A stretch of DNA of 64,000 nt from assembly GCF_002007105.1 (NCBI RefSeq), contig NZ_MVBC01000005.1:62001-126000 (forward strand), given 5' to 3'. Made by a program: the position numbers and the translations under genes. The stretch is from Hymenobacter sp. CRA2. GTDB lineage: Bacteria > Bacteroidota > Bacteroidia > Cytophagales > Hymenobacteraceae. The stretch's first letter is position 1; each line of letters starts with the position of its first letter. This document shows positions 10,421 to 14,906 of this stretch, in pieces. The notes under the pieces are model-generated. The model was given only the letters and a program-made list of their open reading frames with translations. It ran no database searches and had not been told where the DNA came from.

Positions 10421-10450
10421 TTGCGGGGCCGAAGCCAATCTGTAGCTTTG
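10421..10450 (+). promoter_or_regulatory. Bacteroidota-type promoter of the 10471 gene
   Basis: TTG at 10421-10423, then exactly 19 nt, then TAGCTTTG at 10443-10450: a full match to the Bacteroidota -33/-7 consensus. The predicted transcription start falls inside the operator-like CAAAG-CTCTG sequence just downstream. Confidence 0.75.
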
Positions 10451-10467
10451 CCATACAAAGTGCTCTG
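10446..10467 (+). promoter_or_regulatory. operator-like element, copy A
   Basis: CTTTG-N4-ACAAAG-N2-CTCTG, ending 3 nt before the ATG at 10471. The same arrangement with identical spacing recurs at 11579-11600 and 12012-12033. The CTTTG is part of the -7 element, and the CAAAG..CTCTG part is an imperfect dyad. Confidence 0.6.
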
Positions 10468-10470
10468 AAT

Positions 10471-11172
10471 ATGAAGCCTGCCGTTGATCCGTTAGCCCAG
10501 CTTGCCGAAATCCGCTCCATCATGGAGCGTTCCTCACGGTTTATTTCCCTGAGCGGCCTGTCGGGCGTAGGAGCTGGGGTGGTGGCACTGGCCGGGGCCG
10601 CTTTCGGGCATTGGTACCTGAACACGCAGTTTGGCGGCAAAAACGGCGTGGAGCTGTACGGCGCTTCCTTTGGCAGCAAAGAGGGCTTTGTGCACCTGAT
10701 AGAAGGCTCGCCGGACTTGCGCTTGTCGACGCTGCCCTTCCTGCTGATGCTGGCCTTGGGCATCATCGCGCTGGCCGGGGGAGTGGCGGTATTCTTTACC
10801 CAGCGCCGCACCCGCAGCTCGGGCCGCTCGCTCTGGGACCCGGTGGTGCGCCGCCTGTTCTGGAGCATGGCCATTCCGCTGGTGGCCGGCGGGCTGTTTT
10901 GCCTGCAGCTCTACCTGCGTGGCGCCGTGGGGCTGGTGGTGCCGGCCATGCTCATCTTTTACGGCGTAGCTTTGCTGAACGCCAGCAAGTATACCCTGGA
11001 TGAAATTAAGCTGCTGGGTATCTCCGAAATAGCCATTGGTTTAGTGGCAAGCTTGGCTCCCAACTGGGCCTTTCTGTTCTTTGCACTCGGGTTCGGCCTG
11101 TGCCACATCGGTTACGGCCTGCTCATGTACAACCGCTACGAGCGGCAGGCCCACGCCGCCTCGGCGGACTAA
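10471..11172 (+). CDS. integral membrane protein of the winged-helix/DUF4153-like cluster
   Basis: A 233-residue protein with an N-terminal amphipathic helix (residues 1-30, IRSIMERSSRF) and six hydrophobic segments: around 31-52, 92-112, 132-150, 155-172, 186-205 and 209-225. No named domain was recognised. It is the first gene of a plus-strand cluster (membrane protein, winged-helix regulator, small membrane protein, DUF4153-like protein) and has its own consensus promoter and operator copy A, so it is probably controlled together with the downstream genes. ATG 10471 sits just after the operator; an upstream ATG at 10366 would precede the promoter. Confidence 0.85.
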   Translation: MKPAVDPLAQLAEIRSIMERSSRFISLSGLSGVGAGVVALAGAAFGHWYLNTQFGGKNGVELYGASFGSKEGFVHLIEGSPDLRLSTLPFLLMLALGIIALAGGVAVFFTQRRTRSSGRSLWDPVVRRLFWSMAIPLVAGGLFCLQLYLRGAVGLVVPAMLIFYGVALLNASKYTLDEIKLLGISEIAIGLVASLAPNWAFLFFALGFGLCHIGYGLLMYNRYERQAHAASAD

Positions 11173-11224
11173 GCTGCCGTAGTTGCCCGCTTTTCATCCG
11201 CTAGCGGCCCGGGGCCGTACCTGC

Positions 11225-11232
11225 TACCTTTG
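11225..11232 (+). promoter_or_regulatory. -7 element of the winged-helix regulator
   Basis: TACCTTTG matches TAnnTTTG exactly, 30 nt before the GTG at 11263. No TTG lies at the expected distance upstream. A possible TTG start at 11230 lies inside this box, which favours the downstream GTG. Confidence 0.5.
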
Positions 11233-11262
11233 CCGCCTGACTCCGGTCAGCGTCCTGCTTCC

Positions 11263-11562
11263 GTGAAACATGTCATCCACCAGCTCAACAAGGCCTTCGA
11301 CCACCGCGTGCGGCTGGGCGTGATGGCCGTGCTCATGGCCAATGACGCGGTCAGCTTCAACGACCTGAAGGAAACGCTCCAACTGACCGATGGCAACTTG
11401 GCCAGCCACGTGGCTGCCCTCGAAAAAGCGGGCTATCTGCAGGTCAATAAGCAGTTTGTGGGCAAGAAGCCCAACACCACGTACGCCGCCACTGCCGAGG
11501 GCAAACAAGCTTTTCAGGACCACCTAACCACGCTCGAAAAGCTGCTGCGCGCCGACGGATAA
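11263..11562 (+). CDS. winged-helix transcriptional regulator (PF13601-like)
   Basis: A 99-residue single-domain DNA-binding protein. The winged-helix core reads LGVMAVLMANDAVSFNDLKE, then the recognition helix region TDGNLASHVAALEKAGYL, then the wing VGKKPNTTYAATAEG, and a final dimerisation helix. This is the layout of the small MarR/ArsR-like regulators of PF13601, which bind palindromes as dimers. No ligand domain is present. The GTG start at 11263 gives the normal family N-terminus (KHVIHQLNKAFDHRVRLGV). The three CAAAG..CTTTR operators around it are the obvious candidate targets. Inference only. Confidence 0.9.
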   Translation: MKHVIHQLNKAFDHRVRLGVMAVLMANDAVSFNDLKETLQLTDGNLASHVAALEKAGYLQVNKQFVGKKPNTTYAATAEGKQAFQDHLTTLEKLLRADG

Positions 11563-11578
11563 TTTTTTTGGCCATAAA

Positions 11579-11600
11579 CTTTGCGAAACAAAGTACTTTA
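11579..11600 (+). promoter_or_regulatory. operator-like element, copy B
   Basis: CTTTG-N4-ACAAAG-N2-CTTTA, ending 3 nt before the ATG at 11604. The core AAAGTACTTT (11590-11599) is a perfect 10-bp palindrome. Same layout as copies A and C. Confidence 0.62.
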
Positions 11601-11603
11601 TAA

Positions 11604-11885
11604 ATGAGTATACTGCGCTACGAAACTTTACCTCACTGCCGCCAGAAGGCCGCTTCTGCTGATGAAGCGCTGCTGGCGCTATTGCTTACCGCGGGAGCCG
11701 GTATACTTTTCCTTACCAGCTGGCTTTTGCTGCCTCCGCTGCTTGGGCTAGTCACCGATTTCGAGGCTTCGGCCCTGACAGGTGCCAGCTTGACGCTGAC
11801 TGGCAGCGCGGCGGCAGTGGGGTGGTGGGTACTCCGCCGCTGTGGCCGCGGCGCTACGAAGGTTCGGCCGGCGTGTGGGGCGTAA
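11604..11885 (+). CDS. small membrane protein, probably frameshifted near its end
   Basis: A 93-residue ORF with two hydrophobic segments (LLALLLTAGAGILFLTSWLLL, about 23-43, and a second at about 57-76). After VGWWVLRR it ends in a Cys/Arg/Gly-rich tail that does not look like protein. In the frame shifted by two bases, codons from about 11835 read PLWPRRYEGSAGVWGV and then a clean membrane helix ending at 11971. So the native product may be about 120 residues with a frameshift near 11820-11840, in a G-rich run. It could also be genuine with a translationally coupled second ORF. Confidence 0.6.
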   Translation: MSILRYETLPHCRQKAASADEALLALLLTAGAGILFLTSWLLLPPLLGLVTDFEASALTGASLTLTGSAAAVGWWVLRRCGRGATKVRPACGA

Positions 11886-11971
11886 TGCTGCTCAGCGTAG
11901 GATTTCTGTTGGCACTAGCGGTGGCGTGCTTCTGGATTTTGCTAGTAGTAAGTGGGGCAAAGCAGGAATAA
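11885..11971 (+). CDS. 28-codon membrane helix ORF, overlapping the previous stop (TAATG)
   Basis: ATG at 11885 overlaps the TAA of the previous ORF. The product, MLLSVGFLLALAVACFWILL plus VVSGAKQE, is a single transmembrane helix. The frame is also open upstream with protein-like sequence (PLWPRRYEGSAGVWGV), so it is either the displaced C-terminus of the preceding gene or a tiny coupled membrane peptide. The frameshift explanation seems more likely to me. Confidence 0.4.
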   Translation: MLLSVGFLLALAVACFWILLVVSGAKQE

Positions 11972-12011
11972 ACTCCGACGGCCCAAGCAGAGGCTTTTTT
12001 AGATCAATAAG

Positions 12012-12033
12012 CTTTGAAATACAAAGAACTTTA
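12012..12033 (+). promoter_or_regulatory. operator-like element, copy C
   Basis: CTTTG-N4-ACAAAG-N2-CTTTA, ending 6 nt before the ATG at 12040. It has the same order and spacing as copies A and B. Outside this element the three upstream regions do not resemble each other. Confidence 0.6.
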
Positions 12034-12039
12034 CATCTT

Positions 12040-13707
12040 ATGAGCGTACTCCCGCTTTTCTCCACCGAAGCCGCATTGCGCACCGCTGCTCCAGCGGCCA
12101 GTAGCACCTGGCGCCCGGTCCGCTTAGCACTGACGACCACCCAGAAATGGCTCCTGCCGCTGGGCGTCGTGCTGTTTGACGTGTTGTTCTGGCAGCAGGG
12201 CATGGGGCTGAACCTGGCCCTGTACACCCTGCTGGCAACGCTGGCTCTGCTGGCGAGCTGGCCGCACGCTGCCTGGCGCTCGGGCTACTTCCAGCTGACC
12301 CTGGCCGGAGTACTGCTGAGCTGCGGCGCCATGGGCTGGTACGGCTCGTTTACGGCGGCGCTGGCCTGTAGCGGTTCCCTGCTGATGCTGTGGGGCTACG
12401 CCAACCAGCCGCACCTGAAATTGCTGATCCTGGCTTTGCTGACCGGGTTCGGCGCGGCGGTGGAGGTAATCGTGGCCTTGCCGCCGGCGCTGGCACGGCG
12501 CCTGCCCAGCCGCGAAACCAAGGCCGGCCGCGTGCTGTGGTACGCCCGGCTGCTGCTGGTGCCGGTGCTAGTGCTCGGGGTGTTTCACATGCTGTTTGTG
12601 GTGGCCAACCCGCACTACAGCGCTGTGGTGGATACCGTGTGGCAGCAACTGAGCCTGTGGCTAAGCCGCTGGCTGGAACTGCTCTCGTTCGGGCACCTGC
12701 TGTTTTGGGGGCTGGCCCTGGCAGTTACGGCGACCGTGCTGCTGCGCGTGCCACTCCCGGGGCTGGCGCAGTGGGAAGCGCGTTTTGGCGAAGTGGTGCT
12801 GCGCCGCCGCGACTGGGTGGCCTCCTTTGCCGTGCGCCACCCCGATTTCAGCAGCCGTAGCTTCCGTCTGGCCGATCTGCGCAAGGAATACCTGGCGGCC
12901 GTGGCCGTGTTCGGGCTGGTAAATCTGCTGCTGCTGGCCGTCAACGCCATCGACATCAGCTGGCTGTGGTTTGGCTTCGAGCCGGAACCGGGTTTCAACC
13001 TTGCGCAATTCGTGCACGAGGGGACCTACGTGCTCATTTTCAGCATTCTGCTGGCCATGGGCATCGTGCTCTGGTTTTTTCGCCGCAACCTTAACTTCTA
13101 CCGGCCCGGCCTGCCCGCCCTGCGCTGGGGCGCTACCGTGTGGGTCCTGCAGAACGCGGTGCTGGCCGTATCGGTGGGCCTGCGCAATTACTACTACATC
13201 AGCCACATGGGCTTGGCCTACAAGCGCATCGGCGTGTGCTTTTTCCTGCTGCTGACCTTGTTCGGGCTCATGACCATCCTGCTCAAGATCTGGCAGCGCC
13301 GCTCGGCTTTCAGCCTGGTGCGCCTCAATAGCGTGGCCGCCTACGTGGTGCTGCTCAGCCTGGCCCTGGGCAACTGGGAAAGTTGGATTGCGCGCTACAA
13401 CCTCACCACGGGCTTCGCGCAGATTGATTACGGCTTCCTGCTCGACATGCCCGGCCGCGTGCTGCCCGAGCTAGTTCGGCACCGGGCCACGCTGAACCGC
13501 ACGCCGCACATCGTGCGCGCCAACGGCAACTTCTACACCCTCTACGAGGAAGTGAAGCCCGCCGAAGCCCAGCTGCTGCTCGATGCCCGCGTGGCGGAGT
13601 GGCGCCGCACTTACGAGGCCGAAGCCAGCTGGCAGGACTGGACCTACGCCGACTGGGCGGCTTATCAGCAGCTAACCACCGGGTCCAACGCTGCAGTTGC
13701 GCACTAA
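12040..13707 (+). CDS. DUF4153/DUF4173-like polytopic membrane protein
   Basis: A 555-residue protein with about twelve hydrophobic segments. The centre carries the signature I associate with this family: LVNLLLLAVNAIDISWLWF, then VHEGTYVLIFSILLAMGIV, then RRNLNFY and a following helix with LRNYYYISHMGLAYKRIGV. A soluble C-terminal tail of about 100 residues follows. Function is unknown; the family is often found beside small PF13601-like regulators in Bacteroidota, as here. ATG 12040 lies right after operator copy C; the frame extends upstream, but that part reads through the operator and is not protein-like. Confidence 0.85.
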   Translation: MSVLPLFSTEAALRTAAPAASSTWRPVRLALTTTQKWLLPLGVVLFDVLFWQQGMGLNLALYTLLATLALLASWPHAAWRSGYFQLTLAGVLLSCGAMGWYGSFTAALACSGSLLMLWGYANQPHLKLLILALLTGFGAAVEVIVALPPALARRLPSRETKAGRVLWYARLLLVPVLVLGVFHMLFVVANPHYSAVVDTVWQQLSLWLSRWLELLSFGHLLFWGLALAVTATVLLRVPLPGLAQWEARFGEVVLRRRDWVASFAVRHPDFSSRSFRLADLRKEYLAAVAVFGLVNLLLLAVNAIDISWLWFGFEPEPGFNLAQFVHEGTYVLIFSILLAMGIVLWFFRRNLNFYRPGLPALRWGATVWVLQNAVLAVSVGLRNYYYISHMGLAYKRIGVCFFLLLTLFGLMTILLKIWQRRSAFSLVRLNSVAAYVVLLSLALGNWESWIARYNLTTGFAQIDYGFLLDMPGRVLPELVRHRATLNRTPHIVRANGNFYTLYEEVKPAEAQLLLDARVAEWRRTYEAEASWQDWTYADWAAYQQLTTGSNAAVAH

Positions 13708-13723: not shown

Positions 13724-14047
13724 ATGAACTCTCAACCTGCTTTTATGCCGTTGAATCGCGCCGGTCTGCGGCGAAGCCTGGGCCTGGTGCTTGGGGTGGG
13801 CCTATTGCTGCTACTGTTCCGAACCATCGACGACTTCCCGGAGTCCTGGCAGCGGCCCATCTTCTTTCTGGGGCTGGGCAGCGCCAACACCCTGCTCTAC
13901 TTGCTGGTCACGCGCCGCAGTAGTACCACGCCCGGTGCCGGCAACGCCGGGCAAGCACGGCTGGTGGCCGTGCTGATTCACGTGCTCAGCGCCGGCCTGG
14001 TGCTGCTGGCTTGCCTGTTCATAGCCCTCGGGCTGAACCCGCACTAG
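13724..14047 (+). CDS. small membrane protein of unknown function
   Basis: A 107-residue protein with three hydrophobic segments (GLVLGVGLLLLLF, PIFFLGLGSANTLLYLLV and VLIHVLSAGLVLLACLFIAL). No family was recognised. It starts 16 bp after the DUF4153-like stop codon, so it probably belongs to the same transcript. An in-frame ATG at 13697 would overlap the previous gene by 11 bp; the start at MNSQPAF is the more usual spacing. Confidence 0.72.
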   Translation: MNSQPAFMPLNRAGLRRSLGLVLGVGLLLLLFRTIDDFPESWQRPIFFLGLGSANTLLYLLVTRRSSTTPGAGNAGQARLVAVLIHVLSAGLVLLACLFIALGLNPH

Positions 14048-14138: not shown

Positions 14139-14906
14139 ATGACCTTTACTGACTGGACCGCGTACTTCCGCGCCAATAAAACCCACCTGGCCGACGTCAG
14201 CTGGGACGACCCTTACTGCCTCAGCGCCCGCGAAAAACGCGCTGCTGGCCGCTCTCTGCAGCATTTTCAGCGCTTCGAAACCTCCGAGGGCCAGTTTTTG
14301 CAGCAGCGGGCCGCCGACCTTGGCGACCCGGCTTACGTGGCAGCCATCCGCGGCCTGATTCAGGAAGAGGGCGACCATTCGCAGGCGCTGGGGCAGTTTC
14401 TCGACCAGCAGTGCCTGCCGCGCCTGCGCCGCTCCTGGGTGAACGACGCTTTTCGGTGGCTGCGACGCTGGGGCAGCCTCGAAACCACCGTGCGGGTGCT
14501 GCTCACGGCGGAAGTGGTGGGCACGGTGTACTTCCGGGCGCTCTACCACGCCACTTACTCGGGCCTGTTGCAGCAGCTGTGCCTGCGCCTGCTGCGCGAC
14601 GAAGAAATGCACGTCAACTTTCAGTGCTTCACGCTGAGCCAGCTGCGGCCGCGCCGGAGCGCCCTGGGCTGGTGGTGGCGGCAGCGGCTGCACGGCTTGC
14701 TCACGGCCGGCACCGCGCTGGTGGTATGGCTGTGGTACAACCGCGCGCTGTGGGCCGGCGGCATGGGCCCGGTCGGCTTTTTTGCGAGCGTAGCCGAGGA
14801 ATGGGAGCGAGCCTGCAACCTGCTGCGCCAGCCCGAAACCATCAGCATCCGTCCGCCCGCGCCCGCGCCGCACTCGGCCCCCTCATCATACCGCCGTGCT
14901 TCCTGA
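14139..14906 (+). CDS. ferritin-like diiron protein with C-terminal hydrophobic segment
   Basis: A 255-residue protein with the four-helix diiron ligand set: E47 or E50 in helix 1 (FETSEGQ), ExxH in helix 2 (E77-GD-H80), E125 in helix 3 (TAEVVGTVYF) and ExxH in helix 4 (E155-EM-H158). This is the ferritin/rubrerythrin/oxygenase pattern. I cannot tell whether it stores iron, reduces peroxide or oxygenates a substrate. Residues about 184-204 (LLTAGTALVVWLWYNRALW) are hydrophobic and may touch the membrane. Its stop codon overlaps the start of the next gene by one base (TGATG), so coupling to two small membrane proteins is likely. Confidence 0.8.
   Translation: MTFTDWTAYFRANKTHLADVSWDDPYCLSAREKRAAGRSLQHFQRFETSEGQFLQQRAADLGDPAYVAAIRGLIQEEGDHSQALGQFLDQQCLPRLRRSWVNDAFRWLRRWGSLETTVRVLLTAEVVGTVYFRALYHATYSGLLQQLCLRLLRDEEMHVNFQCFTLSQLRPRRSALGWWWRQRLHGLLTAGTALVVWLWYNRALWAGGMGPVGFFASVAEEWERACNLLRQPETISIRPPAPAPHSAPSSYRRAS

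Follow-up and report, generated by a model that had tools for sequence, protein, structure and literature searches.

A 22-nucleotide (nt) element, CTTTG-N4-ACAAAG-N2-CTYTR, occurs three times within a 64,000-nt stretch of the Hymenobacter sp. CRA2 genome (contig NZ_MVBC01000005.1, positions 62,001 to 126,000 of the forward strand; hereafter the window, from whose first base coordinates are counted). Sequence comparison makes it very likely that this element is the operator of a small winged-helix regulator, HTH_34 (PF13601), encoded between its first two copies, and that genes for membrane proteins are repressed through it. The three copies lie exactly where a preliminary description of the window had placed them, at 10446..10467 (operator A), 11579..11600 (operator B) and 12012..12033 (operator C), all on the + strand and with an ATG 3, 3 and 6 nt downstream, respectively. 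Operator B is 16 nt downstream of the stop codon of the regulator gene. The window contains no further match even when up to two mismatches are allowed, and shuffled versions of it yield a mean of 0.10 matches, with none of 100 shuffles reaching three. Across the loci of relatives the base preceding CAAAG varies, giving the core CTTTG-N5-CAAAG-N2-CTTT. The third box of operator A contains a C (CTTTG-N5-CAAAG-N2-CTCTG), and this deviation recurs at the same position in three loci from the same genus (L056, L058 and L059).

The genome as a whole (G000, 5.88 Mb) contains five exact matches to the element and none to a reversed-pattern control. Searched in its CTTTA form with up to two mismatches, the element gives ten matches, nine of them situated 3-115 nt before a plausible gene start; at up to three mismatches there are 22 matches compared to 23 for the control, so that the three-mismatch matches must be regarded as noise. 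The preliminary description named as refuting its reading the outcome that the element is common upstream of unrelated genes; this is not borne out: the nine convincing sites in 5.88 Mb precede membrane-protein or ABC-transporter genes in eight cases and a gene for an MPAB-type oxygenase in the ninth. The genes following the other eight sites are gene A (described below) with the HTH_34 gene, gene B, a DUF4153 gene, and those encoding a 190-residue protein with six transmembrane (TM) segments, a DUF2157 protein, a 103-residue protein with three TM segments, an ABC ATPase together with a 1203-residue permease-like protein, and a 498-residue polytopic protein. Two of the sites are found 705 nt apart (L252; G000:C12:1-7000), the one 62 nt before the gene for the 103-residue protein, the other before that for the ABC ATPase, which is followed by the 1203-residue protein, permease-like in its first half.

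The presumed repressor is the product of a 99-residue open reading frame (ORF) at 11263..11562 (+ strand, GTG start). It had been described as PF13601-type and indeed matches that family with 106.6 bits against a cut-off of 27 (Pfam 7.3e-31), covering positions 1-80 of the 80 in the profile; it is the single PF13601 match in its own genome. Scores of 16.1 bits against MarR (cut-off 24.6) and 21.5 against MarR_2 (cut-off 27) leave it outside the MarR family. Upstream lies gene A (10471..11172, + strand), encoding a 233-residue protein of an undescribed family (MERSSRFISLSGLSG) with about six TM segments and an N-terminus predicted to be inside. Neither Pfam nor NCBIfam gives the window protein a match above cut-off, and it has no convincing solved relative, the best E-value being 0.068; among 47 family members the matches at E 0.01 are to DUF308 (six), TMEM128 (four) and four other families (one each). 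By simple hydropathy these 47 members have three to six TM segments, most often five. The family is marked by a conserved N-terminal segment ending MERSSRF[IL]SLSGLSG, and charge bias predicts an internal N-terminus in each of the eight members inspected.

Conservation was assessed at the 80 best loci out of 585 confirmed, fetched by the regulator profile (A1) alone and hence independently of the motif. About 20 are from Hymenobacter, and the remainder from Flavobacterium, Chryseobacterium, Cloacibacterium, Pontibacter, Rufibacter, Spirosoma, Siphonobacter, Sediminibacterium, Saprospiraceae and others. Counting sites with at most one mismatch to the core, we find it in 79 of the 80 loci, L216 being the sole exception. 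Within the 900 kb that these loci span there are 157 core matches on the strand of the regulator, none on the opposite strand and two for the reversed pattern. Among the 76 loci with sufficient flank, 70 have a site upstream of the regulator and 66 have one on both sides; a downstream site is present in 74 of 80. The usual layout is operator, multi-TM gene A, HTH_34, operator, membrane protein. In 77 of the 80 loci the regulator gene is preceded, on its own strand, by a member of the gene A family; the distance is no more than 150 nt in 64 and never exceeds 762 nt, and in 11 loci the gap of 503-762 nt leaves room for another gene. In the 120 nt that follow the stop codon of the regulator gene, match quality is bimodal: the best match has 0-1 mismatch in 66 loci and four or more in 14, with no locus at 2-3, and the reversed pattern never falls below three mismatches there. 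Because the sites are all oriented alike with respect to the regulator (157 to 0) and recur at set distances from genes while their flanks differ, we reject a mobile or repetitive extragenic palindromic (REP)-like repeat as an explanation.

Dyads were also counted without reference to the motif. CTTTG-5-CAAAG is present in all of the 30 best own-family loci fetched by PF13601 (L054-L083), where it is joint top and where sites flank the regulator on both sides throughout; it falls outside the top six dyads of 21 plus four unlinked loci. The corresponding figure for L091-L108 (18/18) is no evidence, those loci having been fetched by the motif itself. It is not the case that every HTH_34 protein goes with the motif: the 30 best-matching PF13601 loci from across the phylum (L112-L141), which come mostly from one other family, comprise 26 without a site and four with one (L122, L130, L131 and L137). 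Four unlinked loci from another Cytophagales family (L126, L127, L133 and L136), where the operator is absent, share the AT-rich dyads GTTTA-5, TTTAT-3 and ATAAA-4, each in 4/4; these are possibly a different operator, or chance resemblance in near relatives. At L216:5368, from a Cytophagaceae metagenome-assembled genome, a three-mismatch remnant is seen before gene A, in which the first dyad CTTTG-N5-CAAAG is kept and the third box is lost, hinting that the first dyad may be the essential part.

At the level of whole genomes CTTTGNNNNACAAAGNNCTTT is found in 108 of 150 same-family genomes, with the reversed control in one, and in 38 of 247 from the phylum, with the control in four. PF13601 itself is present in 150/150 and 209/247, respectively, and is therefore too widespread for the domain alone to predict the motif. 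The motif does track gene A. Of 198 Bacteroidia genomes, 63 have the gene A family, 70 the motif and 61 both (Fisher p 1.4e-38), so that the other refuting outcome named earlier, absence of the element before orthologues in relatives, is seen neither here nor at the regulator loci. The motif is found in 9 of the 135 genomes lacking gene A, and the reversed control in 19 of the 198, 13 of these without gene A (13/135); the nine are thus at background level. Such co-occurrence taken alone would also suit another transcription factor that binds the site and controls a gene A-HTH_34 operon. We consider this very improbable, since the binder would have to be gained and lost together with the locus (9/135 against 13/135 in the absence of gene A), the HTH_34 gene lies between sites, and nearly all linked regulators form one clade.

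This last point comes from a tree of 162 regulators, 137 motif-linked and 25 unlinked, in which, with few alignment columns, the inner forks are weak. Linkage requires only three changes on the tree compared to 23.7 when labels are shuffled, and 134 of the 137 linked regulators, together with L216, fall on one deep branch with 100/100 support. Outside this main clade lie 24 of the 25 unlinked regulators, the exception being L216. Among the linked regulators, L110 and L111 adjoin the clade and L120 groups with unlinked ones. L110 and L111 derive from genomes (G215 and G335) of the same phylum and another class, and have a similar operator and an HTH_34 gene; at L110 a membrane-like protein of around 200 residues, missed by the gene A search, takes the place of gene A. 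These two loci suggest that the switch may be of older origin.

The position of the sites relative to promoters indicates how they may act. As described previously, operator A lies on a promoter of the form TTG-N19-TAGCTTTG, with the -33 TTG at 10421..10423 and the -7 box TAGCTTTG at 10443..10450 (both on the + strand and read from the sequence). The box shares CTTTG with the operator and fits the TAnnTTTG of the housekeeping sigma factor of Flavobacterium psychrophilum (PMC9723704). In these data TAnnTTTG spans -12 to -5, which would put the transcription start between boxes 1 and 2, at about position 10 of the operator, and have the operator extend from about -9 to +13. In the window copy, operator and -7 box share bases and the -33 TTG is correctly spaced. 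Of the 76 sites before gene A in relatives (A-type), 64 are preceded by a TTG at a distance of 21-25 nt (shuffled mean 5.9, maximum 14); the -7 box is a strict TAnnTTTG in 27 of 76, and among the rest TTACTTTG is seen in 38. Sites after the regulator (B-type) have another hallmark, a T tract of at least five in 71 of 74 (shuffled mean 5.8, maximum 12), represented in the window by T7 at 11563..11569 (+ strand); a T6 tract at 11995..12000 (+ strand) was read from the sequence upstream of operator C. Overlap with a housekeeping promoter is not found at B-type sites, of which 4 of 74 have a -33 TTG (shuffled 6.9) and 12 of 74 a strict -7 box. T tracts are also found ahead of sites where no HTH_34 gene was detected (L006:955, L008 and L027), and for that reason resemble a promoter feature and are unlikely to be the terminator of the regulator gene. 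Before MQF-type genes TTTG-N23-TTTG is present in 5 of 13 sites; it is only suggestive, given so few sequences, that the first box there might act as a -33 element.

An element that overlaps a -7 box and lies close before gene starts could itself be the promoter of an alternative sigma factor of the extracytoplasmic function (ECF) type, seven of which are reported for F. psychrophilum (PMC9723704). We hold this to be highly unlikely: the element has dyad symmetry, it is unchanged whether a TTG (64/76) or a T tract (71/74) lies upstream, and it tracks a locus, gene A with HTH_34, neither gene of which is a sigma factor. Nor is an RNA element, with CUUUG-N5-CAAAG as a 5'-leader hairpin, at all probable. 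Copy C does fold in this way (-5.9 kcal/mol, z -1.82), but copies A and B do not (z 0.69 and -1.15, respectively), and at A-type promoters the 5' half would lie upstream of the predicted start. No compensatory changes were seen in the boxes, among sites collected at no more than one mismatch, a procedure which hides such changes.

Repression by the HTH_34 regulator, the reading offered in the preliminary description, is the best-supported mode of action, predicted from sequence position. It is favoured by the arrangement before gene A, where the -7 box and the predicted start are covered by the operator, and a factor placed over these normally blocks transcription; that the repressor would be HTH_34 is favoured because, in the conserved pair of gene A and regulator, only the regulator matches a DNA-binding family. 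Alternatively the regulator might bind the element and activate, or do both according to the promoter register, since registers do differ: over the -7 box at A-type sites, after a T tract without TTG at B-type sites and possibly at -33 before MQF-type genes (5/13). The same blocking geometry argues against activation, and the -33 register comes from few sequences; we judge it improbable, if the least so of the alternatives considered here.

For repression by HTH_34 we envisage the following. A regulator dimer would most likely sit on the CTTTG-N5-CAAAG dyad, the half-site centres of which are separated by one helical turn (10 bp); a second, overlapping dyad, CAAAG-N2-CTTTG, would be formed with the third box, CTTT[GA]. 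Before gene A, where the first box lies within the -7 element, the bound protein would occupy about -9 to +13 and so block RNA polymerase. Encoded just downstream of gene A and in the same direction, the regulator is probably autoregulated through the gene A promoter. At other promoters, mostly of the T-tract type, the same operator close before the gene would silence other genes for membrane proteins. Repression would be relieved by a signal that is most likely some disturbance of the membrane or cell envelope, and the recurrent neighbourhood leads us to propose that the gene A membrane protein is most likely the transducer of that signal or a feedback element.

The best guess as to the role of the regulon, membrane or envelope homeostasis, comes by association from the inclusion of CreD and DUF2157 among its targets. 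CreD loss damages envelope integrity in Stenotrophomonas (PMC4689548), and DUF2157 is grouped with LiaI-LiaF, a sensory domain found in envelope-stress operons (PMC11237479). In the 80 loci, 140 genes immediately follow a site: 65 for gene A, 24 for DUF4153, 13 for Coq4-like proteins, eight for DUF1361, five for CreD and fewer for others, the cluster names resting on one tested member each. DUF4153 is thus the commonest site-following gene after gene A, and its cluster is present in 41 of the 80 loci; that of CreD is present in 22. The Hymenobacter genome itself has no CreD match. CreD does not carry the operator wherever it is present: of 30 CreD loci fetched (from 56 matches) just one, L231, has an operator within about 1.5 kb. 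By eye, 26 of the 30 come from genomes without gene A, and in these 26 neither the operator nor a related HTH_34 gene lies within about 1.5 kb. The same inspection by eye shows CreD and the gene A block to be no more than about 3 kb apart in 13 of the 16 genomes that have both genes. More tentatively, and with rather less than even confidence, we suggest an ancient switch of the Bacteroidota, one-component and transmembrane, that would serve envelope homeostasis and in which gene A would sense the membrane and directly control the HTH_34 repressor. The three-box operator, in its different promoter registers, would recruit lineage-specific membrane proteins (CreD, DUF4153, DUF1361, DUF2157, Coq4-like, ABC systems) to a role filled elsewhere by two-component systems (CreBC, LiaRS) or Psp.

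Several observations weigh against an HTH_34-bound operator of membrane-protein genes. No good site lies within 120 nt after the regulator in 14 of the 80 loci, although eight of these have one within 400 nt, and two of the 63 genomes with gene A (G294 and G495) lack the exact motif. Co-occurrence cannot separate the regulator from a constant travelling partner. The clade split is imperfect, with L120 linked among unlinked regulators, L216 the reverse, and the starred branches of the tree forcing three changes. B-type sites lack the -33 TTG that would define the promoter on which they act. Two of the nine first genes in the Hymenobacter genome, those for the ABC ATPase and the MPAB-type oxygenase, encode no TM segment by hydropathy. 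Finally, the sign of regulation is read from operator position only.

Simple hydropathy agrees with the earlier statement that the three element-bearing genes in the window encode membrane proteins: gene A has six TM segments, gene B (11604..11885, + strand; a 93-residue ORF) has one and the DUF4153 protein (12040..13707, + strand) has eight. The last, previously given as DUF4153-like, matches DUF4153 with 116.8 bits against a cut-off of 27 (Pfam 1.6e-33). The gene B ORF ends, at 11885, earlier than its Hymenobacter edaphi homologue (L142), which continues, and within window positions 11604-11970 a hydrophobic, TM-like continuation occurs in another frame; the early stop may represent a frameshift, a sequencing error or decay. 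Beginning 19 nt after the DUF4153 gene, a gene for a 106-residue protein with three TM segments (13727..14047, + strand) is probably a member of the same operon; its weak match to NrsF (E 0.0021) is below the cut-off. The protein encoded at 14139-14906 was earlier called ferritin-like, a label that EEGDH and DEEMH motifs, recognised by eye, would fit; Pfam gives only a sub-threshold match (Ribonuc_red_sm, E 0.23). A family with the same N-terminus is found in 6 of the 80 regulator loci.

Bacteroidota are abundant, and to our knowledge few of their transcriptional regulons have been described outside sugar use, SOS and sigma factors. The present regulon offers a sharp operator, one candidate regulator per conserved locus and an undescribed family of membrane partners, in a layout that recurs across many genera, Flavobacterium and Hymenobacter among them. 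Several membrane-protein families whose function is unknown (DUF4153, DUF1361 and gene A) are thereby placed in a shared regulatory context that makes their function directly testable. Among the open-licence PMC papers listed, we found neither a described operator or regulon for PF13601 nor a regulon of this kind. The nearest, and only, solved relative of the regulator found by sequence, 1UB9 (PH1061), is a full-length match to the domain and was deposited as a hypothetical protein.

The closest known kind of system is that of PadR-type repressors of membrane-protein genes. The Listeria repressors LftR, LstR and LltR (PMC6624303) and the proposed HAAS-PadR dyads (PMC11237479) resemble the present system in having a small stand-alone winged-helix protein near a membrane-associated partner gene and few membrane-protein targets. 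Here too a stand-alone winged helix-turn-helix protein is encoded beside a TM partner, gene A being upstream in 77 of 80 loci. Autoregulation, reported for LftR, LltR and LstR (PMC6624303), would be shared by the HTH_34 regulator. The latter differs in belonging to another phylum and in scoring 17.1 bits against PadR, where the cut-off is 27, and no HAAS model (DUF1700, DUF1129 or DUF1048) is among the six families matched by the 47 gene A proteins at E 0.01; on both PadR score and HAAS domain it therefore falls outside the HAAS-PadR group. At one locus (L213) a 104-residue protein after operator B has a sub-threshold DUF1129 match (22.4 bits, cut-off 29.1), which leaves a distant HAAS link open. 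With the CreBC-CreD envelope system of Proteobacteria the regulon shares CreD, encoded in 22 of the 80 loci and directly after a site in five; it differs in that control is proposed to be exerted here by a one-component winged-helix repressor.

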